Shown here one piece after another: positions 6,429-33,061 of a stretch of DNA of 36,036 nt. The stretch's first letter is position 1. Every line of letters starts with the position of its first letter. The notes beneath the pieces were generated by a model. That model was not told the DNA's origin. It did no database searches and saw nothing but the letters and a program-made list of their open reading frames with translations. The translations under genes and the position numbers were made by a program. Origin of the DNA: Solidesulfovibrio sp. (GTDB taxonomy: Bacteria; Desulfobacterota; Desulfovibrionia; Desulfovibrionales; Desulfovibrionaceae); NCBI RefSeq assembly GCF_029978005.1, contig NZ_JARKOZ010000134.1, forward strand, positions 1 through 36,036, in the 5' to 3' direction.

Positions 6429-9400
6429 ATGGCCCGACGGATCCTTCCCTGCCTTCTCCTCCTGGCCTGTCTGTGGCCGGGATCGGCCATGGCCGAAAAG
6501 CTCCGGAAAAACGTTCTTTATTTCAATTCCTACCAGAACGGCTACCAGTGGTCCGACGAGATACTCGCCGGCATCCGGGAGGCGTTTTCCCACTCCGACT
6601 TCAACGTGGACCTGCAGATCGAGTACATGGACTCGAAGAAGTACGCCGACCCGGTGCTGCGCGGCATGCTCCACGATTTCTACAAGCTCAAGTACCGCAA
6701 CACCCGTTTCGAGGTGATCCTGGCCTCGGACAACTACGCCTTCGACTTCCTGCGGGAATACCAGGACGAGCTCTTTCCCGGCACGCCGCTGGTCTTTTGC
6801 GGGGTCAACGACTTCCATCCGGAGTGGCTCGACGGCCATCCCAACTTCACGGGCGTGCTCGAGGAGCCCGACATCCGCGAGACCCTGGAGCTGGCCTTGC
6901 GCTTCCATCCCGACCGCCGCCGCCTGGTCGTCTTCGGCGACACTTCCGTGACCGGCGTGGCCATCGGCAACCAGTTGCGCGCCGTGGAGCCGTACTTCGC
7001 CGGCCGCCTGGCCTTCGAGTACCTGGACAACCTGAGCCTGTCGCAGATCCTCGACGCCGTGCACGACCTGCCCGCCGACGCCATGATCTTCCTCATCCCT
7101 TTCTACAAGGACACGGAAAAGGACGTCTATTCGGTCAACGAGGTGCTCGCGGCCATCCGGGGCAATTCCGACGTGCCCATCTACAGCGCCTGGCGCTTCA
7201 TGCTCGGCCACGGCATCGTCGGCGGCAAGCTCCACAGCGGCTTCGAGGAAGGTCGGCTCACGGCCGAAATGGCCGACAAGCTCCTGCACGGCGTGCCCCT
7301 GTCCGAGCTGCCCGTGGTCACGCGCACCGACGACGCCTACGTCTTCGACTACAGGGAAATGTTGCGCCTGGACATCACCACCGACAAGCTGCCTTCCAAC
7401 TTCAGCCTGATCAACGAGCCCTACCCGTTCTACCACATCAACATCGCCGTCTTCTGGACGGTGATCATCAGCGTCATCGTGCTGTGCTACGTCATGGTCC
7501 TGCTGGTGACCAACATCCTGCGGCGACGTCGTGTGGAGGAAACCATCAAGGATCAGCTCTCCTTCATGGAGACGCTGGTCAGCACCATCCCCATTCCCCT
7601 CTACTTCAAGGACGGGACCGGGTCCTACAAGGGCTGCAATCCGGCCTTCCGCTCCTGGTGCGGCCTGTCCGGCGAGACCTCCCGGTCCGAGGCCTGCGCC
7701 GGGGTCGGCGAGGCGCCGCTTTCGCGCTACCTCGACGCCGGGGACAGCCTGCTGTTGCGCGAACCCGGCGTGCGCGTGGGGGAGGCCACCATCATGACCG
7801 CCGACGAGGAGCCGCGCTCGGTCATCCTGCACCGGGCCGTCTACGCCAACGCCAAGGGCGAGATCGCCGGGCTCGTCGGCGTGCTCTACGACATTTCCGA
7901 ACTGCGCCACGCCGCCGAGCAGCTGCGCGAGGCCGAGGAGAAATACCGGGGCATCTTCGAGAACTCGGCGCTCGGCATCTTCCGCATGACTCCGGACGGC
8001 CAGACCGTGGACGTCAACCCGGCCCTGCTCAACATGCTCGGCGTGCGCGACCTGGACGAACTGGCCGCCCGGCGCGGCGACCTGGTGGAGGTGCTTTTCT
8101 CCGGCAACGAACGCTTCGAGGCCCTGCTCGCCTCGGTGGAGGACGAGAACGCCACGGTCAAGTTCGAGACCCGCTTCGTGCGGCCCGACGCCAGGATCAT
8201 CACCGTCAACGTCAACATGCGCCTGGTGGCCGACGCCGGCGGCTACCTCGCCTACGTCGAGGGCGTGGTCGAGGACGTGACCATGCGCCACGAGGCCGAG
8301 CGGGCGCTGCGCGAGTCCCAGGAGATGCTGCGCCTGGTCCTCGACAACATCCCCCAGCTCGTGTCCTGGAAGGACAAGGCCCTGCGCTACATCGGGGCCA
8401 ACCGGGCCTTCATCGAGTTCTTCGGCTTCGCCGACCTGGGGGAGCTCATGGGCCGCGACGACTTCGCCCTGCCGCTGAGGCGCGAGGACATGGACGCCGT
8501 GCGGGCGACCGACATCGACGTGATGCGCAACAACCGCACCGTGGCCGGCGAGCTGGCCGCCCGCAACGTCCGGGGGGCCGACGTGCTCCTGGAGATCAAG
8601 AAAGTCCCCCTGCACGACGACCGGGGCGCGGTGGTGGGCGTGCTCTCCACGGCCGAGGACGTGACCCAGAAGGTGAGCCTGGAGCGTCAGCTGCTGCAGT
8701 CCCAGAAGATGGAGGCCATCGGCACCCTGGCCGGCGGCATCGCCCACGACTTCAACAACATCCTCACCTCGATCATCAATTCCGCCGAGCTGGCGCTGAT
8801 GGACCTGCCCCAGGACGCCTCCATGGAGGACGACCTGCGCCGGGTGCTCAAGGCCGGCCTTCGCGGCAGCCGCCTGGTCAAGCAGATCCTCTCCTTCACC
8901 AGGCCGTCCCAGGCCGGGTTCGCGGCCATCAACGTGGTGGACGTGGTGGGCGAGGCGGCCGGGCTCATCAAGGCGTCCATGCCGCGCAACATCAAGATCG
9001 TGCTGAACCTGCCCGATCATCCCGTGCCCTGCCGGGCCGACCCGACCCAGCTCCACCAGATCGTCATGAACCTCGGCACCAACGCCTTCCAGGCCATGCG
9101 CGAAAGCGGCGGCGCGCTCAGCCTGACCCTGGCCGAGGACGATCTGGACGAGACCCTGGCCGGCCAGGTCGGCGTGCGCGCCGGTCGCCACGCCCGCATC
9201 TCCATCGCCGACACCGGCCCGGGCATTCCCCCCGAGATCCAGGACAAGATCTTCGACCCCTTCTTCACCACCAAGCAGAAGGGCGAGGGCACGGGCCTGG
9301 GGCTGGCCGTGGTGCGCGGCATCGTCAAGGGGCATCGCGGCGCGGTCCGGGTGGTCAGCCAGCCGGGGAGCGGCACGCGCTTCGACGTCTTCCTGCCGCT

Positions 9401-9835
9401 TCTCACGGAAACCGAGACCCCGGCCCTGCCCCCTGCCCCGGCCCCCAACCGCGGCCGGGACCGCATCCTTTTCGTCGAGGACGACGAGGACCAACTCCTG
9501 ACCATTCCGCGCGTGCTGGCCCAGCTCGGCCACGAGGTCTCGGCCTTCGGCGGCGGCGCGGCCGCCCTGGCCCGGCTGGCCGCGGACCCGGCCGCCTTCG
9601 ACGTGTGCATCACGGACTACGACATGCCGGACGTAAACGGCCTGGAGCTGGCCGGCAGGATCGCCGCCCTGGCCCCGTCCCTGCCCGTGATCCTGGTCTC
9701 CGGCCGCCTGGGCGACATCGAGGACCGGAAGATGGCCGGCAACATCAAGAAGATCGTGCTCAAGCCCTACAACCAGGCGATCATCTCCGCGGCCATCCGC
9801 GAGGTGCTCGACGCCAAGCCGCAAACCAAAGCCGC

Positions 9836-9839
<4 letters not shown>
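6429..9839 (+). CDS. Hybrid sensor histidine kinase with periplasmic ABC-substrate-binding-like sensor
   Basis: The start at 6429 is chosen because it begins a clean signal peptide (MARRILPCLLLLACLWPGSAMA); an in-frame ATG at 6348 is possible, and neither has a strong ribosome site. The 1136-residue protein runs in order as follows: periplasmic sensor (about 25-318, resembling the ABC_sub_bind family); transmembrane helix (339-363); three PAS domains (about 378-498, 503-623, 628-751); HisKA with His773 in GGIAHDFNNIL; HATPase with ADTGPGIP and GEGTGLGLAVV; and a C-terminal receiver with LFVEDDED and phosphoacceptor Asp1063 in CITDYDMPDVNG. Its stop overlaps the start of the NtrC-type regulator. 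It is the likely sensor for the downstream lactate/pyruvate operon; the ligand is unknown. Confidence 0.92.
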
Positions 9840-11257
<1,418 letters not shown>

Positions 11258-11781: not shown

Positions 11782-15486
<3,705 letters not shown>

Positions 15487-15504: not shown

Positions 15505-16884
15505 ATGGATAACCACCTGTCCCAGAAGTTCGAGGAAATCGTCGGCAAGGAAAACGTCCTGGCCAGCGAGGTGGACCGCCACAGCTACGCCTACGATGCG
15601 GCCGTCCTGCCCCCCAAGCTCCCGGCCCTGGCCGTGCGTCCCGAGACGCCCGAGGCTCTGGGACGGGTGGTTGCCGCCTGCAACGAGCTCGGCCTGCCGC
15701 TGACCGTGCGCGGCTCGGGCACCAACCTCTCCGGCGGCACCATCCCCTCTCCCGGGGGGGTGGTGGCCCTGACCGGGGCGCTCAACAAGATCGTCGAGAT
15801 CAACGAGGCCGATATGTACGCCGTGGTCCAGACCGGCGTGGTCACGGCCAAGTTCGCGGCCGAGGTGGCCAAGCGCGGCCTGTTCTATCCGCCCGATCCG
15901 GGCAGCCAGGCCGTGTCCACCATCGGCGGCAACGTGGCCGAGAACGCCGGCGGGCTGCGCGGCCTCAAGTACGGCGTCACCAAGGACTACGTCATGGGCA
16001 TGAGCCTCTATGACGTGGACGGGGAGCTCGTCAAAACCGGCTCCCGCACCGTCAAGTGCGTCACCGGCATGAACCTGCACGGCCTCATGGTCGGCTCCGA
16101 AGGCACGCTCGGGGTGTTCAACGAGATCATCCTCAAACTCGTGCCGCCGCCCAAGGCCAGCAAGGCCATGATGGCCATCTTCGACGACCTGCTCAAGGCG
16201 TCGGAGACCGTGGCCGCCATCATCGCCGCCAAGATCGTGCCGGCCACCCTGGAATACATGGACGACTTCACCATCAAGACCGTGGAGGACTTCGCCCACG
16301 CGGGGCTGCCCACCGACGCCAAGGCGCTGCTGCTCATCGAGGTGGACGGACACCCGGCCCAGGTCGAGGAGGAAGCCGCCGAGGTCGAGGCCATTTGCAA
16401 GCGCGTGGGCGCGACCCGCATCCACGTGGCCAAGGACGCGGCCGAGCGCAACAAGGTCTGGGAGGCCCGCCGGGCGGCCCTGTCCGCCCTGGCCCGGGTG
16501 CGCCCGACCACGGTGCTCGAGGACGCGACGGTCCCCCGCTCCCAGATCCCGGCCATGGTCGGGGCCCTGGAGAAGATCGCGGCCAAGTACCGGCTTACCA
16601 TCGGCACCTTCGGCCACGCCGGCGACGGCAACCTGCATCCGACCATCCTCACGGACAAGCGCGACCACGAGGAGTTCAAGCGCGTCGAGGCGGCCATCGA
16701 CGAGATCTTCGACGTGGCCCTGGGCCTTGGCGGCACGCTCTCCGGCGAGCACGGCATCGGCACGGCCAAGTCCAAGTACATGGCCAAGGAAGTGGGCATG
16801 GGCTCCATCCTCTACGCCAGGAAGCTGAAAAAGGCCCTGGATCCCAAGGGAATCCTCAATCCCGGCAAGATCACGGGGGAGTGA
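15505..16884 (+). CDS. FAD-binding lactate dehydrogenase, GlcD/Dld type
   Basis: A 459-residue flavoprotein of the VAO/PCMH family, of normal GlcD length. The FAD pyrophosphate-binding region is LTVRGSGTNLSGGTIPSPGG. The C-terminal FAD-oxidase domain has GTFGHAGDGNLHPTIL and SGEHGIGTAKSKY, which carry the conserved substrate-site His residues. It oxidises a 2-hydroxy acid, most likely D-lactate given the operon, and passes electrons to the Fe-S protein encoded one base after its stop. The order por-glcD-glcF resembles the lactate operon of D. vulgaris, where the homologue is DVU3027. Glycolate as substrate cannot be excluded from sequence alone. The ribosome site is weak (GCGAG). Confidence 0.93.
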   Translation: MDNHLSQKFEEIVGKENVLASEVDRHSYAYDAAVLPPKLPALAVRPETPEALGRVVAACNELGLPLTVRGSGTNLSGGTIPSPGGVVALTGALNKIVEINEADMYAVVQTGVVTAKFAAEVAKRGLFYPPDPGSQAVSTIGGNVAENAGGLRGLKYGVTKDYVMGMSLYDVDGELVKTGSRTVKCVTGMNLHGLMVGSEGTLGVFNEIILKLVPPPKASKAMMAIFDDLLKASETVAAIIAAKIVPATLEYMDDFTIKTVEDFAHAGLPTDAKALLLIEVDGHPAQVEEEAAEVEAICKRVGATRIHVAKDAAERNKVWEARRAALSALARVRPTTVLEDATVPRSQIPAMVGALEKIAAKYRLTIGTFGHAGDGNLHPTILTDKRDHEEFKRVEAAIDEIFDVALGLGGTLSGEHGIGTAKSKYMAKEVGMGSILYARKLKKALDPKGILNPGKITGE

Positions 16885-16885
16885 C

Positions 16886-18187
16886 ATGAGCGAGATGCGT
16901 GAACTGGTCGGCCTGCTCAAGCAGATCGACGACCAGCTTGTGGCCTGCATGCGCTGCGGCATGTGCCAGGCCGTGTGCCCCCTCTACGGGGAGACGGGAC
17001 TCGAGGGCCATGTGGCCCGGGGCAAGATCGCCCTGCTCGAATGCCTGGCCGACGAGGTCATCAAGGACCCGGCCGGGGTCAAGGAACGCCTGGACGCCTG
17101 CCTGCTGTGCGGCTCCTGCCAGGCCAACTGCCCGAGCGGCGTCAAGGCCCTGGACATCTTCCTCAAGGCCCGGGCCTTCCTCACGGGCTACTACGGACTG
17201 CCGCCGGTCAAGCGGGCGATCTTCCGGGGACTGCTGAAAAATCCCCGGCTGTTCGACTCCGTCATGTCCATCGCGGCCAAGTTCCAGGGCATCTTCACCC
17301 GCCCGGTCAACGACATGGTGGGTTCGTCTTGCGCCCGTGTGTTCTCCAACCTGCTGGAAGGGCGGCACTTCGCCCCCCTGGCCGGCACGCCCCTGCACGC
17401 GACCCAGGCCGAGCGCGACACCCCCCGCGGGCCGTCGGGCCTCAAGGTCGCCTTCTTCTACGGCTGCGTGGTGGACAAGATGTTCCCGCGCATCGGCGAG
17501 GCCGTGCTCAAGGTCTGCGACCACCACGGCGTGGGCGTGTACATGCCCCACGGACAGGCCTGCTGCGGCATCCCCGCCCTGTCCTCGGGGGACCGCGACA
17601 CCTTCGAGACTCTGGTCGCCGCCAACATGAAGCTCTTCGGCGATCAGGACTTCGACGTGCTGGTCACGCCCTGCGCCACCTGCACCTCGACCATCAAGAA
17701 GATCTGGCCGCTCATGGCCGAAGGCCTGCCCGAGTCGGTCCGGTTCAAGATCCGGGAGCTCGCGCCCAAGGTCAAGGACGTGAGCGCCTTCCTGGTCCAG
17801 GACCTCAAGGTGACCGACGGCCTGGCCGCCGGCGGCGGGGACATCGCCGTCACCTACCACGATCCCTGCCACCTGAAGAAATCCCTGGGCGTCTCCGCCG
17901 AGCCCCGGGCCTTGCTCGCGGCCAACCCGCGCTTCCGTCTCGTGGAGATGGAGGGCGCGGACTCGTGCTGCGGTTCCGGCGGAAGCTTCACCCTACAGCA
18001 TTACGACCTCTCCAAGCGCATCGGCAAGCGCAAGCGGGACAACATCGTCGCCACGGGAGCCTCCGTCGTGGCCACGAGCTGTCCGGCCTGCATGCTGCAG
18101 ATCGGGGACATGCTGTCCCAGGCCGGCGACAGGCTGGCCATACGGCATCCGGTGGAGATTTACGCGGAGACACTGGCCGGGCGCTAG
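16886..18187 (+). CDS. Fe-S electron-transfer subunit of lactate dehydrogenase (GlcF type, CCG domains)
   Basis: A 433-residue partner of the preceding flavoprotein, starting one base after its stop and using GGGGGAG as ribosome site. Two 4Fe-4S motifs lie at the N-terminus: Cys21, 24, 27, 31 (CMRCGMCQAVCP) and Cys72, 75, 78, 82 (CLLCGSCQANCP). The C-terminal half has two cysteine-rich CCG domains, seen as QACCGIPALSSGD and as YHDPCHLKKSLGV with SCCGSGGSF and TSCPACMLQIGD. This is the layout of GlcF and heterodisulfide reductase HdrD-like proteins. It probably moves electrons from lactate to a membrane quinone or another carrier. No membrane helices are seen, so attachment would be peripheral. 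Confidence 0.94.
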   Translation: MSEMRELVGLLKQIDDQLVACMRCGMCQAVCPLYGETGLEGHVARGKIALLECLADEVIKDPAGVKERLDACLLCGSCQANCPSGVKALDIFLKARAFLTGYYGLPPVKRAIFRGLLKNPRLFDSVMSIAAKFQGIFTRPVNDMVGSSCARVFSNLLEGRHFAPLAGTPLHATQAERDTPRGPSGLKVAFFYGCVVDKMFPRIGEAVLKVCDHHGVGVYMPHGQACCGIPALSSGDRDTFETLVAANMKLFGDQDFDVLVTPCATCTSTIKKIWPLMAEGLPESVRFKIRELAPKVKDVSAFLVQDLKVTDGLAAGGGDIAVTYHDPCHLKKSLGVSAEPRALLAANPRFRLVEMEGADSCCGSGGSFTLQHYDLSKRIGKRKRDNIVATGASVVATSCPACMLQIGDMLSQAGDRLAIRHPVEIYAETLAGR

Positions 18188-18223: not shown

Positions 18224-20335
18224 ATGAGTTTTAAAGACAACATCCAGGCGCTATTCGCGCCCAAAACCGTAGCCGTCATCGGCGCCTCCGCCGCGCCGGG
18301 CAAGGTCGGCCATACGGTGGTGCACAACATGCTGGAGGCTGGGTACGAAGGGAAGCTCATCCCCGTGAACCCCAAGGCCGACGAGATCCTGGGCCTGCCC
18401 GTGACCAAGCGCATCGAGGACCTGCCCGAAGGCCTCGACCTGGCCGTCATCGTGGTGCCCGTGGCCGCCGTCGTGCCTTCCATGGAAGCCCTGGCGTTGC
18501 GCAAGGTCAAGGCCGCCATCATCATCACCGCCGGCTTCAAGGAAGTCGGCAAGGAAGGCTATGCCCTGGAGCAGAAGCTCATCGAGATCTGCACCCAAAA
18601 CGACATCGCCATGGTCGGCCCCAACTGCCTGGGTCTCCTCCGCACCCAGGACAACAACACCGCCTCCTTCGCCGCCGGCTATCCCGTGGCGGGCTCCATC
18701 GCCGTCTTCTCCCAGTCCGGCGCGCTGTGCACGGCCATCCTCGACTGGGCGCTCGGTGAGAACGTGGGCTTTTCCAAGTTCATCTCGCTCGGCAACAAGG
18801 CCGTGATCAACGAAGCCCACATGCTCGAATGCCTGCGCACCGACCCCAATACGTCCGTCATCCTCGGCTACATCGAAAACGTGGCCAACGGCCCGGACTT
18901 CATCGAGCAGGCGGCCAAGGTCACCCGCGAAAAGCCGGTCGTCATCATCAAGTCCGGCACCACCGCCGCCGGCGCCAAGGCGGCCTCGTCCCACACCGGC
19001 GCCATCGCCGGCTCCGACGCCGCCTACACCGCCGCCTTTCGCAAGACCGGCATCATCCGGGCGGGCGACATGGGCACGCTCTTCGACTTGGCCCAGGCCT
19101 TCTCCACCCAGCCCCTGCCCGAAGGCCCGGGCCTTTGCGTGGTGACCAACTCCGGCGGCCCCGGCATCCTCGCTGCCGACGCCACCGAGAAGTCGCCGCT
19201 GCTGCACATGGCGCGCCTGTCCAACAGCACCATTGACCGCCTCAAGGAATTCCTGCCGCCCTACGCGTCGCTCTACAACCCCATCGACCTCATCGGCGAC
19301 GCCCCGGCCGAGCGCTACCGCAAGACCCTGGAAGTGGTGGTGGACGACCCGCAGGTCCATTCCATCCTGATTCTGCTGACCCCGACCGCCTCGGCCGAGA
19401 TCATCGAAACGGCCGAAGCCATCATCGACGTGGCCAAGACCACCAAAAAGCCCATCTTCGTCAACTACATGGGCGGCCTGCGCACCAAGCCCGGCGTCAA
19501 GATGCTGGCCGAGGCCGGCATCCCCTGCTCCATCTACCCCGAGCCGCTGATCCAGAGCATCGAGACCATGTACAACTACTACCTGTGGCGGCAGACCCCG
19601 GCCCAGGAGTACCCGGAGATCCGTCGCAACCGCCAGAAGGCCAGGCTCGTCATCAACGAGGCCCGGGCCAAGGGCGCGACCGAGGTGGTGGAGTTCCAGG
19701 CCCAGGAAGTGCTGCGCGCCTACAACCTGCCGACGCCCAACACGGTCCTGGCCCGCTCCTCGGACGAGGCCGTGGCCGGGGCGGAGAAGATCGGCTACCC
19801 GGTGGTGCTGAAAATCGCCTCGCCGCAGATCTCCCACAAGTCGGACGTCGGCGGCGTCAAGGTGAACCTGGCCGACGCCGAGGCTGTGAAAAACGCCTTC
19901 TTCGACATCACGGCCCGGGCCCAGCGCCTGCGCCCCGAAGCCTACATCGCCGGCTGCCTGGTCCAGGAGATGGCTCCCAAGGGCTGCAAGGAGATCATCA
20001 TCGGGTTCAAGCGCGACGACCAGTTCGGCCCGCTCCTGATGTTCGGCCTGGGCGGCATCTACGTGGAGATCCTCAAAGACATCGCCTTCCGCCTGGCCCC
20101 GCTCGGGCGCGACGACGCGAAGAACATCATCCGTGAGATCAAGTCCTACATGCTGCTCAAGGGAGTGCGCGGCGAACCGCCGGTCAACTTCCAGGCCATA
20201 GAAGACATCCTGCTCACCATGTCCGAACTCTCCCTGGATTTCCCCGAGATCCAGGAGGCGGAGTTCAACCCCGTGCTCGTCAACGCCGAGAAGGCCGTGG
20301 TGGCCGACGTGCGCATCACCTTGAGCGCCCAATAA
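18224..20335 (+). CDS. ADP-forming acetyl-CoA synthetase, fused alpha-beta
   Basis: A 703-residue fused enzyme converting acetyl-CoA + ADP + Pi to acetate + ATP + CoA in one step. The N-terminal CoA-binding domain begins KTVAVIGASAAPGKVGHTVV. Succinyl-CoA-synthetase-like flavodoxin domains follow, with GPNCLGLL and SQSGALCTAILDWA. His257 in ASSHTGAIAGSD is the phosphorylated His, at the same number as in the archaeal alpha subunit. From about residue 475 a C-terminal ATP-grasp domain contains VVLKIASPQISHKSDVGGV and ends in EIQEAEFNPVLV. All key parts are intact. It sits in the lactate operon where D. vulgaris carries pta and ackA, so it is the likely site of substrate-level ATP formation. 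Other short-chain acyl-CoAs are possible substrates. Confidence 0.92.
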   Translation: MSFKDNIQALFAPKTVAVIGASAAPGKVGHTVVHNMLEAGYEGKLIPVNPKADEILGLPVTKRIEDLPEGLDLAVIVVPVAAVVPSMEALALRKVKAAIIITAGFKEVGKEGYALEQKLIEICTQNDIAMVGPNCLGLLRTQDNNTASFAAGYPVAGSIAVFSQSGALCTAILDWALGENVGFSKFISLGNKAVINEAHMLECLRTDPNTSVILGYIENVANGPDFIEQAAKVTREKPVVIIKSGTTAAGAKAASSHTGAIAGSDAAYTAAFRKTGIIRAGDMGTLFDLAQAFSTQPLPEGPGLCVVTNSGGPGILAADATEKSPLLHMARLSNSTIDRLKEFLPPYASLYNPIDLIGDAPAERYRKTLEVVVDDPQVHSILILLTPTASAEIIETAEAIIDVAKTTKKPIFVNYMGGLRTKPGVKMLAEAGIPCSIYPEPLIQSIETMYNYYLWRQTPAQEYPEIRRNRQKARLVINEARAKGATEVVEFQAQEVLRAYNLPTPNTVLARSSDEAVAGAEKIGYPVVLKIASPQISHKSDVGGVKVNLADAEAVKNAFFDITARAQRLRPEAYIAGCLVQEMAPKGCKEIIIGFKRDDQFGPLLMFGLGGIYVEILKDIAFRLAPLGRDDAKNIIREIKSYMLLKGVRGEPPVNFQAIEDILLTMSELSLDFPEIQEAEFNPVLVNAEKAVVADVRITLSAQ

Positions 20336-20356
20336 GAACCCCAGGAGGAACAATCC

Positions 20357-21421
20357 ATGATCGGTCTCTACATCGGGTCCACCCAAGGATATTCCGGCAA
20401 AAACCTCGTCACCCTGGCGCTCGGGCAGCAGTTCCAGCGCGAGGGCCTGCGCGTGGGCTACATGAAGCCCATCGGCGCGGTGCCCCACAAGGTGGAGAAC
20501 CAGATCGGCGACGAGGACGCCCACTTCATGCAGCAGGCCCTGGGGCTCTCCGAAACGCCCTCGCTGGTCACTCCCGTGGTCATCACCCGCGACTTCCGCA
20601 TGCGCGCCTTCCTGGAAGATTGCGCCAACCTGCTGCCCGGCATCGTGGACAGCTACAAGAAGCTCTCGACCGGCAAGGACCTCATGCTGGTCGGCGGCTC
20701 GGGCAGCTTCCTGTACTCCGGCAAATACTGCGGCGTGGACGGCGTGGCCGTGGCCCAGGCCCTGGGCACCAAGGTCGTGCTCGTCGACCGCTACCTCCAG
20801 GACTACAACTACGACTACCTGGCCGCGGCCAAGGAGGCGCTCGGCGACGATCTGGCCGGCGTCATCCTCAACGACGTGCCCGAGCACTTCCGCGAAGAGG
20901 CTGAGACGCTCATCGTGCCCTTCCTCAAACGCCGCGGCGTGGACGTGCTCGGCATCATCCCCCACGACCCCATCATGTTCGCCGTGCGGGCCGGCGACCT
21001 GGCCAACGGCCTGGGCGGGCGGCTCATCACCTCCGGCGGACGCACCGACAGCCTGGTGGTCAACTTCCTCATCGGCACCATGCAGGTGGAGAACTTCGTC
21101 ACCTTCTTCAAGCGGCACAAGGACGTGGCCATCCTGTGCGGCGGCGACCGCGCCGACCTGCAGCTGGTGGCCCTGGAAGGCGGCTGCGCGGCCCTGATCC
21201 TGACCGGCAACCTCTACCCCAACGACATCATCCTGGCCAAGGCCGAGGACAAGGGCATTCCGGTCATCGTGGTGCGCGACGACACCTTCTCCGTGGCCAA
21301 GAAGATGGAGCTCATGCTCACGCGCGAGAAGCTGCGCGACCGCTCGCGCATCGAGCACGGAGCCAAGCTCGTGCAGCAGGCCGTGAACATGGCCGCGCTC
21401 AAGAAGAATCTGGGAATCTAG
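20357..21421 (+). CDS. BioD-like P-loop / DRTGG protein (Pta N-terminal half only)
   Basis: A 354-residue protein with a strong AGGAGG 10 bases before the ATG. Residues 1-210 resemble the dethiobiotin-synthetase-like AAA_26 domain, with a modified P-loop GSTQGYSGKN (7-16), GYMKPIG (34-40) and LVGGSG (111-116). Residues 215-330 form a DRTGG domain, including CGGDRADLQLVAL (261-273) and IPVIVVRDDT. These two domains make up the N-terminal half of long (about 700-residue) phosphotransacetylases, where they act allosterically. The catalytic PTA_PTB domain is missing, and the stop is followed by hairpins, not a decayed remainder. A regulatory or assembly role for the adjacent ADP-forming synthetase is an inference; it has no predicted acetyltransferase activity. 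Confidence 0.88.
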   Translation: MIGLYIGSTQGYSGKNLVTLALGQQFQREGLRVGYMKPIGAVPHKVENQIGDEDAHFMQQALGLSETPSLVTPVVITRDFRMRAFLEDCANLLPGIVDSYKKLSTGKDLMLVGGSGSFLYSGKYCGVDGVAVAQALGTKVVLVDRYLQDYNYDYLAAAKEALGDDLAGVILNDVPEHFREEAETLIVPFLKRRGVDVLGIIPHDPIMFAVRAGDLANGLGGRLITSGGRTDSLVVNFLIGTMQVENFVTFFKRHKDVAILCGGDRADLQLVALEGGCAALILTGNLYPNDIILAKAEDKGIPVIVVRDDTFSVAKKMELMLTREKLRDRSRIEHGAKLVQQAVNMAALKKNLGI

Positions 21422-21562: not shown

Positions 21563-23197
21563 ATGTCGTGGGTCCAACAGTACCAACCGCTTGGAAGCTA
21601 TGGGCTTTCCGCCCTCGTGGCGGGAATCCCCCTGTACATGCTGTTCTACATGCTGGCCGTCAAACGCATGGCAGGCCACAAGGCCGCCTTCGCCGCCACC
21701 CTGGCGGCCGTCATCCTGGCCATCGTGGCCTGGGGCATGCCCGTGGGCCTCGCTCTTGACGCCACGGTCTACGGCGCGTTCATCGGCCTGTTTCCCATCG
21801 TCTGGATCGTCATCACGGCCATCTGGGTGTACAACATGACCGTCGAGTCCGGCGAGTTCAACATCATCAAGAACTCCCTGGCCCAGATCACCGACGACCG
21901 CCGGCTCCAGGCGATCTTCATCGCCTTCGCGTTCGGCTCCTTCATCGAAGGCACCGCCGGCTTCGGCACGCCCGTGGCCATCACCGCCGCCATGCTGGTG
22001 GGCCTCGGATTCAACCCCCTGTACGCCTCGGGCATCTGCCTCATCGCCAACACCGCGCCGGTGGCCTTCGGCGCCATCGGCATCCCCATCGTCGTCGCCG
22101 CCCAGGTCAGCGGCCTCGACATGATGAAGATCAGCGCCATCTGCGGCCGCCAGCTGCCGTTTTTATCCGTCATCGTGCCCCTGTGGCTGTCGGTGACCAT
22201 GTGCGGCTTCAAGCGCACCATGGAGGTCCTGCCGGCCGTCATCATCGCCGGCGTCTGCTTCGCCGGCTCCCAGTTCCTGGTATCGAACTACGTCGGCCCC
22301 TACCTGCCCGACATCATTTCGGCCGTCGTGACCATCATCGGCCTGGGCGCCTTCCTCAAGGTCTGGAAGCCCAAGAACATCTGGCACTTCCCGGACGAGC
22401 CGCCCGCGTCCCAGCGCGTCGTCGAGTCGGAGTTCTCCGGCGGCGAGATCCTGCGCGCCTGGATGCCCTACATCATCCTGGCCATCATGGTCTTTCTGTG
22501 GGGCATCAAGCCCATCCAGAACGTCCTCAACGCCATTTTCGCCCCGAGCCTCGACTGGCCGGGCCTGCACAACCTGGTCGTCAAGACCGCTCCCATCGTG
22601 GCCAAGGACACCCCCTACGCCGCGCAGTTCAAGTTCAACTTCCTGTCCACTCCGGGTACGGCCATCCTGATCGCCGGCCTGCTTTCCGTCCTGTTCATGC
22701 CCAAGTACGGCTACGACAAGGCCATTCCCTGCCTGTTCCGTACCATCAAGCAGCTGCGCTGGCCCATCGCCACCATCGCCATGATCCTGGGCCTGGCCTA
22801 CATCATGAACTACTCCGGCATGAGCTCGTCCATGGGCCTGGCCTTCACGGCCACGGGCGCGCTGTTCCCGTTCTTCGCCCCGATCCTCGGCTGGCTCGGC
22901 GTGTTCCTGACCGGTTCCGACACCTCGTCCAACGCCCTGTTCGGCTCCCTGCAAAAGACCACCGCCCAGCAGATCGGCGTCAGCCCCGAGCTGTGCGTGG
23001 CCGCCAACTCCTCGGGCGGCGTCACCGGCAAGATGATCTCGCCCCAGTCCATCTCCGTGGCCACCGCCGCTTCCAACATGGTGGGCAAGGAAGGCGACAT
23101 CTTCCGCTTCACCCTGCCCCACTCCCTGGCCATGCTCTGCTTCGTGGCCGTGCTGACCCTGCTTCAGGCCTACGCCCTGAAGTGGATGCTGCCTTAG
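21563..23197 (+). CDS. lldP: L-lactate permease family transporter
   Basis: A 544-residue integral membrane protein. The ATG at 21563 is chosen because AAAGGAG lies 8 bases upstream and MSWVQQYQPLGSYGLSALVA is a typical start for the family; an upstream in-frame start at 21494 lies within a hairpin region. About a dozen hydrophobic helices are visible. Family signatures include AFGSFIEGTAGFGTPVAIT, NTAPVAFGAIGIPI, MNYSGMSSSMGLAF, LTGSDTSSNALFGSLQ and GKMISPQSISVATAA. LctP-type permeases import lactate (and glycolate) with protons. It is encoded between the dehydrogenase genes, so it supplies substrate to both lactate-oxidising systems. In D. vulgaris the permease follows por directly; here it is sixth. 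Confidence 0.95.
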   Translation: MSWVQQYQPLGSYGLSALVAGIPLYMLFYMLAVKRMAGHKAAFAATLAAVILAIVAWGMPVGLALDATVYGAFIGLFPIVWIVITAIWVYNMTVESGEFNIIKNSLAQITDDRRLQAIFIAFAFGSFIEGTAGFGTPVAITAAMLVGLGFNPLYASGICLIANTAPVAFGAIGIPIVVAAQVSGLDMMKISAICGRQLPFLSVIVPLWLSVTMCGFKRTMEVLPAVIIAGVCFAGSQFLVSNYVGPYLPDIISAVVTIIGLGAFLKVWKPKNIWHFPDEPPASQRVVESEFSGGEILRAWMPYIILAIMVFLWGIKPIQNVLNAIFAPSLDWPGLHNLVVKTAPIVAKDTPYAAQFKFNFLSTPGTAILIAGLLSVLFMPKYGYDKAIPCLFRTIKQLRWPIATIAMILGLAYIMNYSGMSSSMGLAFTATGALFPFFAPILGWLGVFLTGSDTSSNALFGSLQKTTAQQIGVSPELCVAANSSGGVTGKMISPQSISVATAASNMVGKEGDIFRFTLPHSLAMLCFVAVLTLLQAYALKWMLP

Positions 23198-23276: not shown

Positions 23277-23903
23277 ATGTCGACTCCCCCCGCCCTGGTC
23301 GACCGCCTCAAGGAGAAGGCCGGCCTCGTTTCGGCTGTGGTCGCCTCCGTCGCTTCCATGGACGAAGCCATCGCCTACGTGGCCGACGTGTGCGCCAACA
23401 AGGAAGCCTGTCAGATCCTGGCCTCGGGCTGCGACGCCCCCCTGTCGGACACGGCCGAGGCGCTTTGCGAAACGAAACAGCAAAAGATCGTCTGCGCTCC
23501 GGACCTGCCCGAGGAGGACGTGGCCAAGCTGACCGCCTTGTGCCAGGAGCGCGGCATCGCCGTCATCACCAAGGGCATGCGCGGCCGCCTCGGCGGCATC
23601 GACATCGCCGTGACCATGGCCGCGGCGGGCATCGCCGAAACCGGTACCGTGGTCGTGCGCTCCACCGACGAGGAAGTCCGCCTGGCCACCATGATCGCCG
23701 AGACGCACATCGCCCTGTTGCCCGAGAGCGCCATCGTGGCCGACTCCTATGATTTCGAGCCCACGCTCGTCTCCTGGATGGGCGAGCCGAACTACACCGC
23801 CTTCATCACCGGTCCTAGCCGCACCGCCGACATCGAACGCGTGCTGGCGCTTGGCGTGCACGGGCCCCTGGAGATGCACATCCTCATTCTGGAGGGCAAG
23901 TAG
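23277..23903 (+). CDS. lutC: LUD-domain protein of L-lactate oxidation (LutC/LldG-like)
   Basis: A 208-residue LUD (DUF162) protein with AAGGAG 7 bases before its ATG. The family region covers most of the chain, with LGGIDIAVTMAAAGIAETGT and the conserved VADSYDFEP and SRTADIERVLALGVHGP, which ends almost every LutC. LutC works with LutA and LutB as the non-flavin, Fe-S L-lactate dehydrogenase complex first described in Bacillus. Its gene is followed directly, with no gap, by the lutB-like fusion. The homologue in D. vulgaris is DVU3032. No Fe-S motif is present, as expected for this subunit. Confidence 0.93.
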   Translation: MSTPPALVDRLKEKAGLVSAVVASVASMDEAIAYVADVCANKEACQILASGCDAPLSDTAEALCETKQQKIVCAPDLPEEDVAKLTALCQERGIAVITKGMRGRLGGIDIAVTMAAAGIAETGTVVVRSTDEEVRLATMIAETHIALLPESAIVADSYDFEPTLVSWMGEPNYTAFITGPSRTADIERVLALGVHGPLEMHILILEGK

Positions 23904-26060
23904 ATGCAAGACGCCGCCAACCTGAGCGAATACCGCAAGCAGCTGCGCGAGGCGCTGGAGAACGAATTTCAGCGGGAGGCCCTGGACAAGTTCGCCGTGG
24001 CCTACCGCACGTCCCGGGCCAACGCCTTCGCCGGCATCGACGCCCCGGAGCTCATCAACGAGATCGCCGTGGCCAAGGACGAAGCCGTGGACCATCTGAT
24101 GGAGCTCTACGAGGAGTTCAAGCGCCACGCCGAAGCAGCCGGCACCAAGGTCCACCTGGCCGCCACCGCCCGCGAGGCCAACGAGATCATCGCCGCCATC
24201 GCCAAGGAGAACGGGGTCAGGACCATCGTCAAATCCAAGTCCATGACCGCCGAGGAAACGCACCTCAACGACCACCTCGAGGCGCAAGGGCTCGAGGTCA
24301 CGGAAACCGACCTCGGCGAATGGATCATCCAGCTGCGCCACGAAGGCCCCACCCACATGGTCATGCCGGCCATCCACCTCTCCCGCTACCAGGTGGCCGA
24401 CCTCTTCACCGAAGTCACCCGGAAGAAGCAGGACGTGGACATCCAAAAGCTCGTGAAAGTCGCCCGGCGCGAGCTGCGGCCGAAATACTGCCAGGCCGAC
24501 ATGGGCATCTCCGGGGCCAACTTCGCCATCGCCGCCACGGGCAGCATCGGCATCATCACCAACGAGGGCAACGGCCGCCTGACCACCACCCTGCCCCGCG
24601 TCCACGTGGCCCTGGCCGGCATCGACAAACTCGCCCCCACGCTCCACGATGCCCTTCGCATCATCAAGTGCCTGCCCAAAAACGCCACAGGCCAGAACCT
24701 GACTTCCTACGTCACCTGGATCACCGGCGCGGTGCCCTGCGCCGTCGGTCCGGAGGGCAAGAAGGTCCATCACGTGGTCTTCGTGGACAACGGTCGCCTG
24801 GCCATGGCCAAGGATCCGCTGTTCAAGCAGGCCCTGCGCTGCATCCGCTGCGGCGCCTGCGCCAACGTCTGCCCCATCTACCGCCTGGTCGGCGGCCACA
24901 AGTACGGTCACGTCTACATCGGGGCCATCGGCCTGGTCGCCACCTACTTCTTCCACGGCCGGGACAAGGCGAAAAACCTGGTGCAGAACTGCCTCAACTG
25001 CGGCGCCTGCAAGGCCGTGTGCGCCGCCGGCATCGACCTGCCGACCATGATCAAGGAGGTCCATGCCCGCATCCAGGACGAGGAAGGCCATCCGCTGTAT
25101 TCCTCGGCCGCCGGCATGGTGCTCAAAAACCGCACGCTCTTCCACACCATGCTCAAGTCCGCCCGGGTCATGCAGAAGCCCGTGGCCGGCGGCGGCTACC
25201 TGCGCCACCTGCCCATGTTCCTGTTCAAGGACCACGACTTCCGCGCCTTGCCCGCCATCGCCGACGAGGCCTTCCGCGACCGCTGGGAAAAGATCCGGCC
25301 GCGCGTGGCCAAGGCCGACATCAAGGTGGCGCTGTTCTCGGGCTGCGTGCAGGACTTCGTCTACCCCGAGCAGATGGAGGCGGCCGTGGCCGTCATCGCG
25401 AGCAAGCCCGGCGTGGCCATGGAATACCCCATGGGCCAGTCCTGCTGCGGGTTGCCGCTCATGATGATGGGCGAGAAAAAGGCCGGCCGGGAGCTGGCCG
25501 CCCACAACATGAACGCCATCGACGCCGCCGGGTTCGACTACATCGTCACCCTGTGCGCCTCCTGCGCCTCCTATCTCAAGCACGGCTACCAGCGGCTGTT
25601 CGCGGACGATCCGGCCATGGCCTACAAGGCGGCCCAGTTCGCCCACCGGGTCATGGACTTCAGCTCCTTCGTCCATGACGTGCTGGGCATGGACCAGGAA
25701 GCCTTCACCGGGCCGTCCAAGGACGTCACCTACCACGCGCCCTGCCACCTGTGCCGGGGATTGGGCGTGACCGAGGCCCCGCGCGAGCTTTTGCGCGACG
25801 CCGGGCTCAACTACCTGCCGGCTGCGGAAGAGGACGTGTGCTGCGGCTTCGGCGGCACCTTCTCGGTCAAGTTCCCGGAGTTGTCCAAGGAGCTCTTGCA
25901 CAAGAAGATCAACAACCTCAAGGCCACCGGTGCCACGGCCATGGCCACGGACTGCCCGGGCTGCATCATGCAGATCCGCGGCGGCTTCGAGCATGAGGGC
26001 ACGACCTTCGAGGTCCGCCACGTGGCCGAATACCTGGCGGCGCGACTGAAGCGCGGCTAG
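23904..26060 (+). CDS. Fe-S L-lactate dehydrogenase subunit, LutB-LutA-like fusion
   Basis: The 718-residue protein starts immediately after the lutC stop; GGAGG in the end of lutC is its ribosome site. Residues 1-300 are a LUD domain (region NEGNGRLTTTLPRVHVALAG). Two 4Fe-4S motifs follow: Cys313, 316, 319, 323 (CIRCGACANVCP) and Cys363, 366, 369, 373 (CLNCGACKAVC). The C-terminal third adds two CCG domains (GQSCCGLPLMMMGE; APCHLCRGLGV with VCCGFGGTFSVKF and DCPGCIMQIRGGF). LutB proteins are about 475 residues and LutA about 240, so this looks like both in one chain. With LutC it should oxidise L-lactate to pyruvate. The last gene of the operon, it is followed by a strong terminator; the D. 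vulgaris counterpart is DVU3033. Confidence 0.93.
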   Translation: MQDAANLSEYRKQLREALENEFQREALDKFAVAYRTSRANAFAGIDAPELINEIAVAKDEAVDHLMELYEEFKRHAEAAGTKVHLAATAREANEIIAAIAKENGVRTIVKSKSMTAEETHLNDHLEAQGLEVTETDLGEWIIQLRHEGPTHMVMPAIHLSRYQVADLFTEVTRKKQDVDIQKLVKVARRELRPKYCQADMGISGANFAIAATGSIGIITNEGNGRLTTTLPRVHVALAGIDKLAPTLHDALRIIKCLPKNATGQNLTSYVTWITGAVPCAVGPEGKKVHHVVFVDNGRLAMAKDPLFKQALRCIRCGACANVCPIYRLVGGHKYGHVYIGAIGLVATYFFHGRDKAKNLVQNCLNCGACKAVCAAGIDLPTMIKEVHARIQDEEGHPLYSSAAGMVLKNRTLFHTMLKSARVMQKPVAGGGYLRHLPMFLFKDHDFRALPAIADEAFRDRWEKIRPRVAKADIKVALFSGCVQDFVYPEQMEAAVAVIASKPGVAMEYPMGQSCCGLPLMMMGEKKAGRELAAHNMNAIDAAGFDYIVTLCASCASYLKHGYQRLFADDPAMAYKAAQFAHRVMDFSSFVHDVLGMDQEAFTGPSKDVTYHAPCHLCRGLGVTEAPRELLRDAGLNYLPAAEEDVCCGFGGTFSVKFPELSKELLHKKINNLKATGATAMATDCPGCIMQIRGGFEHEGTTFEVRHVAEYLAARLKRG

Positions 26061-28171: not shown

Positions 28172-29980
28172 ATGTTCTTGAAAATGCGACTTTCCACAAA
28201 GCTCGTCTGCGCCTTCGGACTTCTCATCGTCATTCAAATCACTGGAATCGTCACAGCACTTATGCTTCTGGGAAGCATTAATACCAGCGTCGATGATCTC
28301 AACACGAATTGGCTGCCTAGCATAGATTCCATATCGATAGTTGACCATGAATTGCAAACCCTGCGCAGGTGGGAAATCCTGCATGTGCTTTCCACAAACG
28401 ACGACGACATACGCACCTACGACAAGATGATCGTTGACAAGAAGACAGACTTAAGCAGGGCGCTAAGCAAATATGAATCCTTGATCAGCTCGACAGAGGA
28501 AAGAAATATTTACAATACGTTTCAATCAAATCTCAATAAATACTATACAGTTTCTAACAAGCTCCTCGAACTGTCCAGAAAAAACGACACCGAGAATGCG
28601 AAAAAGCTGACGGAAGGTGAGTCGCGTCAAACATTCAATGAGGCCATGGACAAGCTGAAGCAGCTTGTGGAACTCAACAAGAAAGGTGGTGCCGATTCCG
28701 CCGTCGCCGCCAACAATGACTACCAGCGGGGCCGTGTCATCCTCATCGGCCTCCTTGTCGTCGCCACGCTCCTCGGCGTGATCGTATGCCTCGCCATTCT
28801 GCGCGGCGTGGCCAACCAACTCGGCGAGGACCCGGGTTACCTGCACGACGTGGCCAGCCGCATCGCCGGCGGCGAGATGGATATCCGCTTCAAAGAGCAC
28901 AAGGGCGAGGGCGGCGTGTTCGCCGTGCTCAAGCAGATGGTGGCCAACCTCAAGCTCAAGATCGACGAGGCGGACAGGAAAAGCGCCGAGGCCGCCGACG
29001 AGGCCGCCAAGGCCAACAAGGCGACCGAAGCCGCGGAAGCCGCCCGCCTGGCCGCCGAAAACGCCAAGACCGAAGGCATGCTCCAGGCCGCCGACCGCCT
29101 CTCCTCCGTGGTGCACATCGTTTCCTCGGCCTCCGAGGAACTCTCGGCCCAGATCGAACAGACGAACCAGGGTGCGGACCAGCAGTCCCGCCGTCTGTCC
29201 GAGACGGCCACGGCCATGGAAGAAATGAACGCCACCGTGCTGGAAGTGGCCCAGAACGCCTCCCAGGCCGCCGACACCTCGGCCAAGGCCCGGTCCAAGG
29301 CCGTGGAAGGCTCCGAGGCCGTGGGGCGGGTCGTTTCCTTCATGGAGCGCGTCAACGAAAATTCGCGCCAGTCCCTGGAGGACATGGGCATGCTCGGCAA
29401 GCAGGCCGAGAACATCGGGCAGATTCTCAACGTCATCTCCGACATCGCCGACCAGACGAATCTTTTGGCCTTGAACGCCGCCATCGAGGCGGCCCGGGCC
29501 GGCGAGGCCGGGCGCGGCTTCGCCGTGGTGGCCGACGAAGTCAGAAAGCTCGCCGAAAAGACCATGACCGCCACCAAGGAAGTCGGCGACGCCATACGCG
29601 GCATCCAGTCCGGGGCGCGCAAGAACTACGACAACGTGGAACAGTCCGTGACCGCCGTGGGCGAGGCGGCCTCCCTGGCCGCCGCCTCCGGCGACATCCT
29701 GCGGGAGATCGTCGATCTCGTGGACACCTCCGCCGACCAGGTCCGCTCCATCGCCACGGCCTCGGAACAGCAGTCCGCCTCCAGCGAGGAGATCAACCGC
29801 TCCGTGGAGGAGGTCAACCGCATCGCGGCCGAGACCATGGACGCCCTGCGTCAAGCGGCCCAGGCCGTGACCGACCTGGCCCAGCAGGCCCAGGAACTTT
29901 CCAGCATGGTCCAGGAGATGCAAGGGTCCGGAAGCACGACCTCCCTTGGCGGAGGCAGACGTCCGCGCGCCTTGACCTGA
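28172..29980 (+). CDS. Methyl-accepting chemotaxis protein with AT-rich sensor half
   Basis: The 602-residue receptor starts at 28172 (CAGGAGG six bases upstream; upstream in-frame ATGs lack such a site). Transmembrane helix 1 is residues 11-34. The periplasmic part (35-185) is a four-helix-bundle-like domain including [20 protein letters not shown]. Helix 2 is 188-210, HAMP about 211-265, and an Ala/Glu-rich coiled coil follows. The signalling domain has the tip [20 protein letters not shown] and [18 protein letters not shown]. It senses an unknown ligand and controls CheA. The coding sequence for residues 1 to about 165 is much more AT-rich than the remainder, which matches the genome; this suggests a sensor domain acquired by recombination. 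Confidence 0.94.
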
Positions 29981-30237
29981 TTCTCCAGGTCTTCCCGTCC
30001 CGCCGGCCGACCGCGCGCCGGCCGACGGATCTCTTGCGGGGAAGGCGGCCGGTTCGCGCCAAAAGCGTTTTCCGGATGACAAGGCCGGCCGGCCTGTGTA
30101 TATGCTGCCGCAACGGTCTCCCGCGTGCCTCGCAAAATCGGGCTGACCGTGAAACGCCAATGGACCGGCCACCTATCGCATTCTGCGCGGCCCCGATATC
30201 CCCCTCACTCCACACATTCCCCTTCACAGGAGACGCC

Positions 30238-30900
30238 ATGACGACCAAGGAAGCCCCCACCGGGGCCATATTGCAGCGTGACCAGCAGACCTACGCCATC
30301 GTTCCCCGCACTCCGGTGGGGCTCATCTCCCCCGAGGTTCTCGAAGCCCTCAACATTGTGGTCAAAAAGTACGCCATTCCCATCGTCAAGATCACTTCCG
30401 GCCAGCGCCTGGCCCTGGTCGGGGTCAAAGCCGAGGACGTGGACGCCATCTGGAAGGATCTGGGCACGGACGTGGGCCAGGCGCTCGAGCTTTGCGTGCA
30501 CTTCGTCCAGGCCTGCCCGGGCACGAGCGTGTGCAAGTTCGGCGTCCAGGATTCGCTCGGCCTCGGTCTGGAAATGGAAAAGCTCTTCGTCGGCCGCGAC
30601 CTGCCGGGCAAGTTCAAGCTCTCGGTCTCGGGCTGCCCGTTTTGCTGCTCCGAAGGCTTCGTGCGCGACCTGGGCGTGCTCGGCAAGAAATCCGGCTGGA
30701 CCGTCATCTTCGGCGGCCATCCCGGAGCCAAGCCGCGCATCGGCGACATCGTGGCCGAGGACCTGGCCAAGGAAGAGGTCATCGCCCTGACGGAAAAACT
30801 CCTGGCCTACTACGCGGCCAACGCCAAGAAGCGCGAGCGCGCCGCCCGGTTCGTGGAGCGCGTGGGCATCGACGCCGTCAAGCAGGCCGTGCTGGGCTGA
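30238..30900 (+). CDS. Small assimilatory-type sulfite reductase (siroheme-4Fe-4S)
   Basis: A 220-residue protein with AGGAG seven bases before the ATG, the size of the low-spin assimilatory-type sulfite reductase of D. vulgaris (about 220 residues) and far smaller than DsrAB subunits. Cluster ligands follow the family pattern: Cys93-X5-Cys99 (CPGTSVC) and Cys133-X3-Cys137 (CPFCC), the latter shared with siroheme. An N-terminal ferredoxin-like half (LISPEVLEALN to SGQRLALVGV) precedes the cluster region. It reduces sulfite to sulfide in vitro in its relatives; the physiological role is uncertain. Cys136 inside the second motif is an extra cysteine. It appears monocistronic, ending at a bidirectional terminator. 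Confidence 0.93.
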   Translation: MTTKEAPTGAILQRDQQTYAIVPRTPVGLISPEVLEALNIVVKKYAIPIVKITSGQRLALVGVKAEDVDAIWKDLGTDVGQALELCVHFVQACPGTSVCKFGVQDSLGLGLEMEKLFVGRDLPGKFKLSVSGCPFCCSEGFVRDLGVLGKKSGWTVIFGGHPGAKPRIGDIVAEDLAKEEVIALTEKLLAYYAANAKKRERAARFVERVGIDAVKQAVLG

Positions 30901-30916: not shown

Positions 30917-30957
30917 AAACGCCCCGGCCGCGACAAGCGACCGGGGCGTTTCGTTTT
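30917..30957. terminator. Bidirectional terminator between convergent genes
   Basis: AAACGCCCCGG (30917-30927) and CCGGGGCGTTT (30941-30951) form a perfect 11-bp stem with a 13-base loop. T-rich sequence follows on the plus strand (to 30957) and on the minus strand (complement of 30915-30919). It ends the sulfite reductase and the convergent DUF255 gene. Confidence 0.9.
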
Positions 30958-30967
30958 GTCGGCAGGG

Positions 30968-33061
30968 TCATTTCGCGCCGAGCAGTTCGAGCATGGCCGC
31001 CGGATCGGTGGTCGGCGGCTGGCAGGAGCCGGCCCGGCAGACATGGGCCGCGGCCTTGCCCTCCACGGACAACTGGTAGCGGGAGAACGGAGCCAGGAAA
31101 ACGATCTCCGGATCGTCCCCGTCCGGTCGCAGCAGAACTGCCACCTCCGGCAGGTAACGGTCGAAGAGGGCCCGGGCCAGGGCGTGCGTGTCCGGGCTGT
31201 CGGGGTCGCCGGCGAGGGTCGTTTCCGCCGCCGGGGCAAGCAGTTGCGACAGGCCGCACAGGAAGAAGCTGAAGGCCGACGGCCGCTCGGTCAGGCGTTC
31301 GGCGAAGCGCTCGCCAAGGCCTTGCGCCCGCTCCATGAAGGCCTTCTCGCCAGTGAGGCGATGGAGCGTGGTCAGCACGAAAAAGGCCACGCTGTTGCCC
31401 GAGGGCACGGCCGCGTCGAAATAGGTCTTCTGGCGCAGAAGCAGCTCCTCCCCGTCGTCCGGGGTGAGGAAAAATCCGCCGTCGTCCCCGGCGAAATGGG
31501 CGATCATGGCCCGGGTCGCCTCCACGGCCCGCCGCAGGAAGGACGGGTCGAACACGGTCTGGTAGAGTTCCAGGAGCCCCCAGGCCAGGCAGGCGTAGTC
31601 GTCGAGCATGCCGGGCACGCCCGCGACGTCGCCGCGCAGGCGATGGAGCAACCGCCCGTCGGCAAGGCCCAGCCGGGCCAGGACCGCCTCGGCCGCCGCG
31701 CGCGCCCGACCGGCGAGCTCCTCGTCGTCGAAGGCACGGGCGGCCTTGGCCAGGGCGGCGATCATGAGCCCGTTGCCGTCGGCGAGCACCTTGTCGTCGC
31801 AAAGGGGCCGTACCCGCTTCTTCCGGGCGGCCAGCAGGGCCGGGCGACAGCGTTCGAGGCGCTCGGCCAGCTCCCCGGCGCTCAGGCCATGGCGCGCCGC
31901 CGTTTCCGCCGGGGGCTCGGCCACAAAAGGGATGTTGCTTCCCGTGGCCGCGCCCGTGGCCTCGTCGCGGTAGTTGCCCTGCTCCTCGATGCCGTAGGCG
32001 TCGCAGAAAAGCGCCGCGTCGGCCTCGGGCAGCACGGCCCGGATTTCCGCCGCCGTCCAGACGTAGAACTTCCCTTCCACGCCCTCGCTGTCGGCGTCCT
32101 CGGCGCTGTAGAAAAGCCCCTTGGGGCTGGTCAGGTCGCGGCGGACGTACTCGAAGATCTCCAGGGCCGTGCGCCGAAAGTCCGCCTCGCCCGTGGCCTG
32201 CCAGGCCTCGACATAGGCCATGGCGCAAAGGGCCTGGTCGTAGAGCATCTTCTCGAAGTGCGGCACGAACCAGCGCGCGTCGGTGCTGTAGCGGTGAAAG
32301 CCGAAGCCGACCTGGTCGAACACGCCGCCGCGGCGCATGGCGGCCAGGGTTGCACGCACCATGCGCAGGCACTCGTCGTCGCCGGTCCGGCGGTACTCGC
32401 GCAACAAGAACAGCAGATTGTGAGGCGCGGGGAATTTCGGCGCGCCGCCGAAGCCGCCGTTTGCCGCGTCGAACATGTCAGCCAGTTCCTTGCGCGCGGC
32501 GGCGAGGTCCTTTTCGCCCGGGGTCGCGCCCGGTCCGGCCTCGCCGCCGTCCACACGGTCGCGCACGGCGGAAAGGATCTGGGCGGCGTTGCCGATCACG
32601 GCCTGGCGGTTGCCCTTCCAGGCCATGTGCACGCGTTGCAGCAGCTCCCGCATGCCCGTGCGGCCGAAGCCGGACTCCTTGGGGAAATAGGTGCCGGCGA
32701 AAAAAGGCTGGCCGTCCGGGGTGAGAAAGACCGTGAGCGGCCAGCCGCCGCGACCGGTCAGGGCCTGGCAGAAGGTCATGTAGAGCGTGTCGAGGTCGGG
32801 CCGCTCCTCCCGGTCCACCTTGACGGCCACGACCGTCGCCCGCATGAGCGCCGCGATGTCCTCGTCCTCGAAGCTCTCGCGCTCCATGACGTGGCACCAG
32901 TGGCAGGTGGAATAGCCGATGGAGAGGAAGATGGGCTTGTCCTGGGCCTTGGCCTCGGCGAAGGCCCCCTCGCCCCAGGGAAACCAGTCCACGGGATTGT
33001 AGGCGTGCTGCTGGAGGTAGGGGCTCGGTTCGTGGATCAGACGGTTGGCTTGGCGAGACAT
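30968..33061 (-). CDS. DUF255 thioredoxin-like protein (YyaL/SPATA20 family)
   Basis: A 697-residue protein read from the ATG at 33061, which has GGAGG six bases upstream; an in-frame ATG 44 codons earlier lacks family similarity. The N-terminal thioredoxin-like domain starts with the family hallmark [21 protein letters not shown] and has a CxxC active site, Cys53 and Cys56, in [10 protein letters not shown]. It continues with [13 protein letters not shown] and [16 protein letters not shown]. The remaining 500 residues form an alpha/alpha-barrel-like region resembling N-acylglucosamine epimerase folds, with [20 protein letters not shown] and [11 protein letters not shown]. Its biochemical role is not established. 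Full length, no disruption, no signal peptide. Confidence 0.93.

Follow-up and report, generated by a model that had tools for sequence, protein, structure and literature searches.

What does a free protein resembling the N-terminal half of a phosphotransacetylase (Pta) do when encoded directly behind an ADP-forming acetyl-CoA synthetase? The question is raised by a 36,036-nucleotide stretch of Solidesulfovibrio sp. (contig NZ_JARKOZ010000134.1; hereafter the window), whose plus strand carries a lactate-to-acetate run of genes. Within this run lie a fused ADP-forming acyl(acetyl)-CoA synthetase (ACD; 18224..20335, + strand, 703 residues) and, starting 21 bp past its stop, a stand-alone protein with a BioD-like P-loop and a DRTGG domain (PtaN; 20357..21421, + strand, 354 residues). 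The two genes form a conserved couple, and the idea that they are paired is strongly supported. By analogy with class II Pta, we give a probability of about one half to the reading that they make up a module in which PtaN would be a nucleotide-binding regulator acting on ACD in trans.

The synthetase is complete. Pfam places CoA_binding_2, Succ_CoA_lig, Ligase_CoA_2 and ATP-grasp_5 on one chain, the domain set of the fused form, and the original prediction was right about its coordinates, strand, domains and the position of its candidate phosphohistidine. This residue, His257 of the motif SSHTGA, presumably corresponds in numbering to the phosphohistidine of the archaeal ADP-forming enzyme; we would also expect a second histidine in the ATP-grasp part, for which H538 is a candidate. 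The PDB relatives are 8wzu, 4xyl and 2csu. Scores against the NCBIfam equivalogs all fall below their cut-offs (TIGR02717, 545 against 567 bits; NF045493, 665 against 1300; NF045494, 498 against 1200), so the protein is assigned to the general family and to no named equivalog. In the Solidesulfovibrio-like assembly (96.3% complete, 224 contigs), genome-wide searches found no acetate kinase and no Pta, the single PTA_PTB match (29 bits) being plsX by NCBIfam (379 bits, cut-off 243); full pta and ackA genes elsewhere in the genome, which the original prediction had named as evidence against itself, thus did not appear. Because no acetate kinase or Pta is detectable, and given its place in the operon, ACD is the evident enzyme making acetate and ATP from lactate-derived acetyl-CoA here. 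Further ACD-like genes in this genome were looked for down to an E value of 1e-110 only.

PtaN matches AAA_26 (58.9 bits, cut-off 27) and DRTGG (89 bits, cut-off 25.2), and beyond these Pfam gives only a CbiA match below threshold, which overlaps the AAA part. This is the AAA/P-loop plus DRTGG layout of the N-terminal half of class II Pta; by Pfam there is no PTA_PTB domain and hence no catalytic half, in agreement with the prediction of a BioD-like/DRTGG protein equal to the Pta N-terminal half only. Nor does a catalytic remnant lie behind the PtaN stop, as had also been foreseen, since the next gene is a lactate permease (21563..23197). With about 354 residues, AAA and DRTGG domains only, and a place among stand-alone proteins in the tree, PtaN fits the stand-alone family typified by D. 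vulgaris DVU3031, represented here by the domain-scanned L191 of the luo pta-ackA type. The S. alcoholivorans protein is 95% identical. A second stand-alone PtaN, overlooked by the original prediction, lies elsewhere in this genome (G000:C178:22183-23241; L002, L004), is 52% identical and occupies the flagellin-rnc place. The ACD slot at that place is empty, whereas relatives carry ACD-PtaN there.

The AlphaFold model of PtaN (predicted local distance difference test score 88.5) resembles BioD, dethiobiotin synthetase, and the DRTGG structure of Archaeoglobus fulgidus AF1212 (2ioj). The P-loop, GYSGKN, spans residues 11-16, and Lys15, Lys37-Pro38 and Asp54 are conserved. Such a fold and such residues would suit an enzyme in its own right, a BioD-like ATP-dependent ligase or kinase of the same pathway. 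We consider this improbable: the BioD family test failed (TIGR00347, 22.4 bits, cut-off 83.3), which leaves a likeness in fold only; residue 16, after the P-loop lysine, is Asn and not Thr or Ser in the window protein and 68 aligned relatives, that is, in all 69 Desulfovibrionales proteins; and in class II Pta the homologous half is reported to be regulatory (PMC12724200).

Could PtaN instead be what remained when a local pta lost its catalytic half? Its domain order is that of the Pta N-terminal half, and the related D. vulgaris operon has pta in the slot. Two observations led us to reject this origin. In a quick tree of 87 representatives (LG+G4; the window represented by L005), the seven fused Pta N-halves are split from every stand-alone PtaN by a branch with a Shimodaira-Hasegawa-like approximate likelihood ratio test (SH-aLRT) support of 99. 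Furthermore, five related luo operons (L191-L195; Desulfovibrio sp. A2, Nitratidesulfovibrio liaohensis, a Desulfovibrio metagenome-assembled genome and two Halodesulfovibrio) hold an intact pta-ackA together with a stand-alone PtaN that is 48-51% identical to that of the window. Scores point the same way, as the window PtaN, queried against a phylum sample of 296 genomes, gave 82 stand-alone matches of at least 80 bits and 19 fused Pta at 42-55 bits, and no Pta catalytic half was found in the regions of those 82; scores as low as those of fused Pta (41-49 bits) are also seen in seven divergent stand-alone matches. In 11 of 13 fused Pta N-halves, residue 37 is Arg and not Lys. Unless the tree is wrong, derivation from a pta lost at this place appears refuted, and we regard it as very unlikely. 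DVU3031-type proteins belong to a group of 25 Desulfovibrionales rows, 15 of them with ACD, eight without and two from pta-ackA operons (SH-aLRT 100). Among the low-scoring proteins, L180-L184 form a very divergent stand-alone AAA+DRTGG-like group of 365-376 residues, with no ACD in the fetched regions.

The survey of relatives that the original prediction had proposed showed the linkage to be conserved. We used two sets that share four loci: 80 named loci and 82 phylum-sample regions, the latter being all PtaN matches of at least 80 bits outside this genome (left out were seven weaker stand-alone matches, five of them fetched, six short ones and one fragment). An ACD on the same strand within 1.5 kb counted as upstream. 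It was found in 62 of the 80 named loci and 60 of the 82 regions, or in 117/156 once identical PtaN were merged. Between stop and start lie no more than 100 bp in 56 of 62 named and 56 of 60 phylum-sample pairs, the median gaps being 43 and 4 bp, and a small control gave no ACD in 13 fetched fused-Pta regions (19 fused Pta found). The couple is also seen from the other side: when ACD was queried independently in the 296 genomes (189 with matches, up to three candidates scored per genome), coordinates placed PtaN beside 41 of the best 50 ACD matches listed. Up to the point at which unpaired matches set in, a limit chosen post hoc, 33 of the first 34 have PtaN, and a mixture follows; one of these 33 has its PtaN 1.2 kb off, another is a partial in-frame case (L149), and the 34th (L205) is cut by a contig end.

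The members of a pair also diverge in step. Across 16 loci from seven assemblies that each hold two or three pairs, the locus whose PtaN is nearest also ranks among the five nearest by ACD in 12 cases, and ACD and PtaN distances correlate at 0.71 over 115 pairs, a value that shared ancestry alone could give. When 84 ACD representatives are placed on a tree, the label paired or unpaired switches twice, a count biased because paired members entered through PtaN. Apparent fusions at L110, L120, L121 and L127 proved to be artefacts, as their frames differ and stop and start overlap by 4 bp. At L149 (G134:C9), the sole in-frame case, seen in a single sampled genome, ACD and a DRTGG part share one 944-residue open frame; we do not take it as evidence of fusion because the ACD tail and the BioD domain are missing, and it may be a natural fusion, a deletion or an assembly error.

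The couple extends to archaea, for which plasmid records and papers were used. PtaN matched 13 plasmid records, ten of them haloarchaeal; nine of these ten list both genes under the match, the tenth being the L188 plasmid treated below. The two genes overlap by 4 bp in all four annotated haloarchaeal records opened, and the pair scanned for domains (L185) has the same AAA and DRTGG domains and no Pta catalytic half.

How might such a pair work? The acetyl-CoA/acetate step would be served by ACD and PtaN as a conserved module of two proteins, in which the BioD-like P-loop domain of PtaN would bind a nucleotide and the DRTGG domain would sense the energy or the CoA/redox state. PtaN would then tune ACD by contact in trans, as the attached homologous half does in class II Pta. 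There, the enzyme depends on the homologous half to oligomerise and to be fully active, and a mutation in DRTGG alters the response to pyruvate (PMC12724200); a pyrophosphatase DRTGG with CBS domains binds AMP and Ap4A, according to the title of a paper cited in PMC13039410 (structure 3l2b). By analogy with these two systems, PtaN is a candidate nucleotide-responsive regulator in trans. The P-loop Gly-Lys is nearly always kept in ACD-linked PtaN (118/121) and is present in 26/40 of those without ACD. Eleven of the 14 without it come from a group that has a 269-residue protein in the same region. The gene for this protein lies 3′ of an ACD-less, P-loop-Lys-lacking PtaN on the same strand in ten loci (L135-L138, L143, L144, L153, L157, L161 and L163); the two members scanned (L153, L137) have no Pfam match.

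Several findings weigh against regulation of ACD by PtaN. PtaN occurs without an upstream ACD in 22 of the 82 phylum-sample regions and 40 of 162 over both sets (five of the 40 have less than 1.5 kb of upstream DNA), and a Natronococcus plasmid (L188, unannotated) has PtaN with no matched ACD and with an AMP-forming acetyl-CoA synthetase (AMP-ACS) on the opposite strand at a distance of 369 bp. Conversely, the next 19 PtaN-less ACD matches, when fetched, showed no PtaN nearby (L221 with 1 kb of downstream DNA only), so that ACD chemistry does not need PtaN; in H. mediterranei, a plasmid that carries only the ACD is enough to restore growth on acetate (PMC11784441). The genomes of L191-L195 and L036 contain as ACD-like frames only ones of 919-962 residues at 30-33% identity (920-962 residues in L191-L195, the five with PtaN beside pta-ackA), and no separate ACD, in a search that did not include D. 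vulgaris Hildenborough itself. The P-loop Gly-Lys is not special to ACD partners, being present in 13/13 fused Pta N-halves, 5/5 PtaN of pta-ackA operons and 5/5 weak stand-alone proteins, and Asn at residue 16 may alter Mg-nucleotide binding. Finally, the DVU3031 homolog is said to have no part in lactate oxidation and to be usually absent (Vita 2015, PMC4481167). The predicted partnership is supported as a conserved pairing; against its being exclusive stand the 40 ACD-less PtaN, the L-lactate phenotype of DVU3031 (PMC10102598) and the PtaN beside pta-ackA in genomes with no separate ACD.

These exceptions suit a different view of the same protein: PtaN would be no subunit of ACD but a portable sensor for the acetyl-CoA/acetate node, serving ACD, Pta-AckA or AMP-ACS alike. 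The gene before PtaN does vary. In L191-L195 the order is dldA, dldB, pta, ackA, PtaN, lldG, lldH, with por preceding in 5/5 (cut by the region edge) and a permease match between por and dldA in all but L195. At L102 an AMP-ACS stands 109 bp upstream of PtaN in the place of ACD, preceded by a CoA-transferase, which also precedes ACD-PtaN in nine other loci. The flagellin-rnc place of Desulfovibrionales holds ACD followed by PtaN in 35 non-redundant loci and PtaN alone in 19, among which is the second copy of this genome. Since the partner changes while PtaN stays, PtaN may track the acetyl-CoA/acetate step, whichever enzyme performs it, and the importance of DVU3031 on L-lactate (PMC10102598) would fit. 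Weighing the other way, AMP-ACS in the slot is known from one genome, the other nine AMP-ACS neighbours being 0.4-4.8 kb off (two on the opposite strand, two in loci that also have ACD), and the lone PtaN of the rnc place may be nothing more than genes in decay. We hold the portable sensor to be possible but doubtful; slightly more tentative still is its extension, that enzymes swap before an exchangeable free sensor subunit of which class II Pta would be the covalently attached case. Were it true, direct trans control of ACD, AMP-ACS or Pta by a P-loop/DRTGG protein would be a new allosteric control common to bacteria and archaea.

The surrounding genes bear on a last alternative, that PtaN serves the L-lactate dehydrogenase LldGH, in assembly or regulation, and no acetate enzyme. 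All on the plus strand, the run is opened by por (pyruvate:ferredoxin oxidoreductase, 11845..15486, luo-type) and continues with genes for a dldA-like FAD subunit of D-lactate dehydrogenase (15505..16884, relatives keeping the order) and a dldB-like iron-sulfur subunit (16886..18187), ACD, PtaN, the lactate permease (PF02652, 602 bits), an lldG-like LUD-domain subunit of L-lactate dehydrogenase (23277..23903) and lldH, the large subunit of the quinone L-lactate dehydrogenase (23904..26060; NF045670, 1098 bits, cut-off 800); where no family is named, assignments are by Pfam. One argument for an LldGH role is that lldG directly follows PtaN in the pta-ackA operons. Within the regions fetched, which reach up to 6 kb to either side, only 10/60 phylum-sample pairs have lactate genes and the other 50 have none, and the four haloarchaeal pairs opened have no such gene annotated next to them, so this role seems quite unlikely. 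Upstream of por, a gene with an approximate start (9845..11257, + strand) encodes a response regulator with a sigma-54 activator domain, LurR-like as judged by position and domains only; by Pfam its domains are residues 1125-1510 of a longer open frame, 6473-11254. Farther downstream, a 704-residue open reading frame (28786-30900) is nitrite/sulfite reductase-like in its C-terminal part, its N-terminal 480 residues having no family match, and a 769-residue frame (30956-33265, + strand) with no Pfam or NCBIfam match may not be a gene.

Returning to the ACD-PtaN module, its elements have partly been described. The D. vulgaris luo operon shares por, permease, dldA-B, lldG-H and a stand-alone AAA+DRTGG gene with the window; its acetate step is pta plus ackA, whereas the window has ACD directly before PtaN. 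The original prediction had placed pta and ackA there correctly and missed that DVU3031 accompanies them (PMC4481167, 2015). The same paper describes six species in which a putative ADP-forming acs stands in for ack and pta, and its passages on the luo operon do not link this replacement to the DVU3031 homolog. DVU3031 has since been named 'pta-N', of unknown function (PMC6456213, 2019), and found important for growth on L-lactate (PMC10102598, 2023). In haloarchaea, the ADP-forming synthetase HFX_0998 adjoins a 364-residue 'putative PTA', HFX_0997, which is upregulated by glucose; the arrangement is described as widespread and the physiological function of HFX_0997 as undetermined (PMC11784441, 2024). 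By size and position this is the same pair with its second protein named PTA, the likeness in domains resting on L185 and not on HFX_0997 itself. The claim that the pairing is undescribed consequently stands for the regulatory idea only and not for the haloarchaeal adjacency or for acs in place of pta-ack, both already in print; we found no open-licence paper that treats the ACD-adjacent protein as a regulator of ACD. The pairing offers a direct hypothesis for DVU3031 and HFX_0997, proteins of culturable organisms, and questions the label 'phosphotransacetylase' on such proteins in records. In A. fulgidus, AF_1211 is listed as an acetate-CoA ligase (PMC8359953) and AF_1212 is the DRTGG protein of PDB 2ioj, the consecutive locus tags suggesting that the genes are adjacent. 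Class II Pta shares with PtaN an N-terminal half of a P-loop BioD-like domain followed by DRTGG, there joined to a PTA_PTB catalytic half and forming a separate clade. Its regulatory half, poorly understood in function, could be probed through the free-standing form in trans, on an enzyme of another fold.

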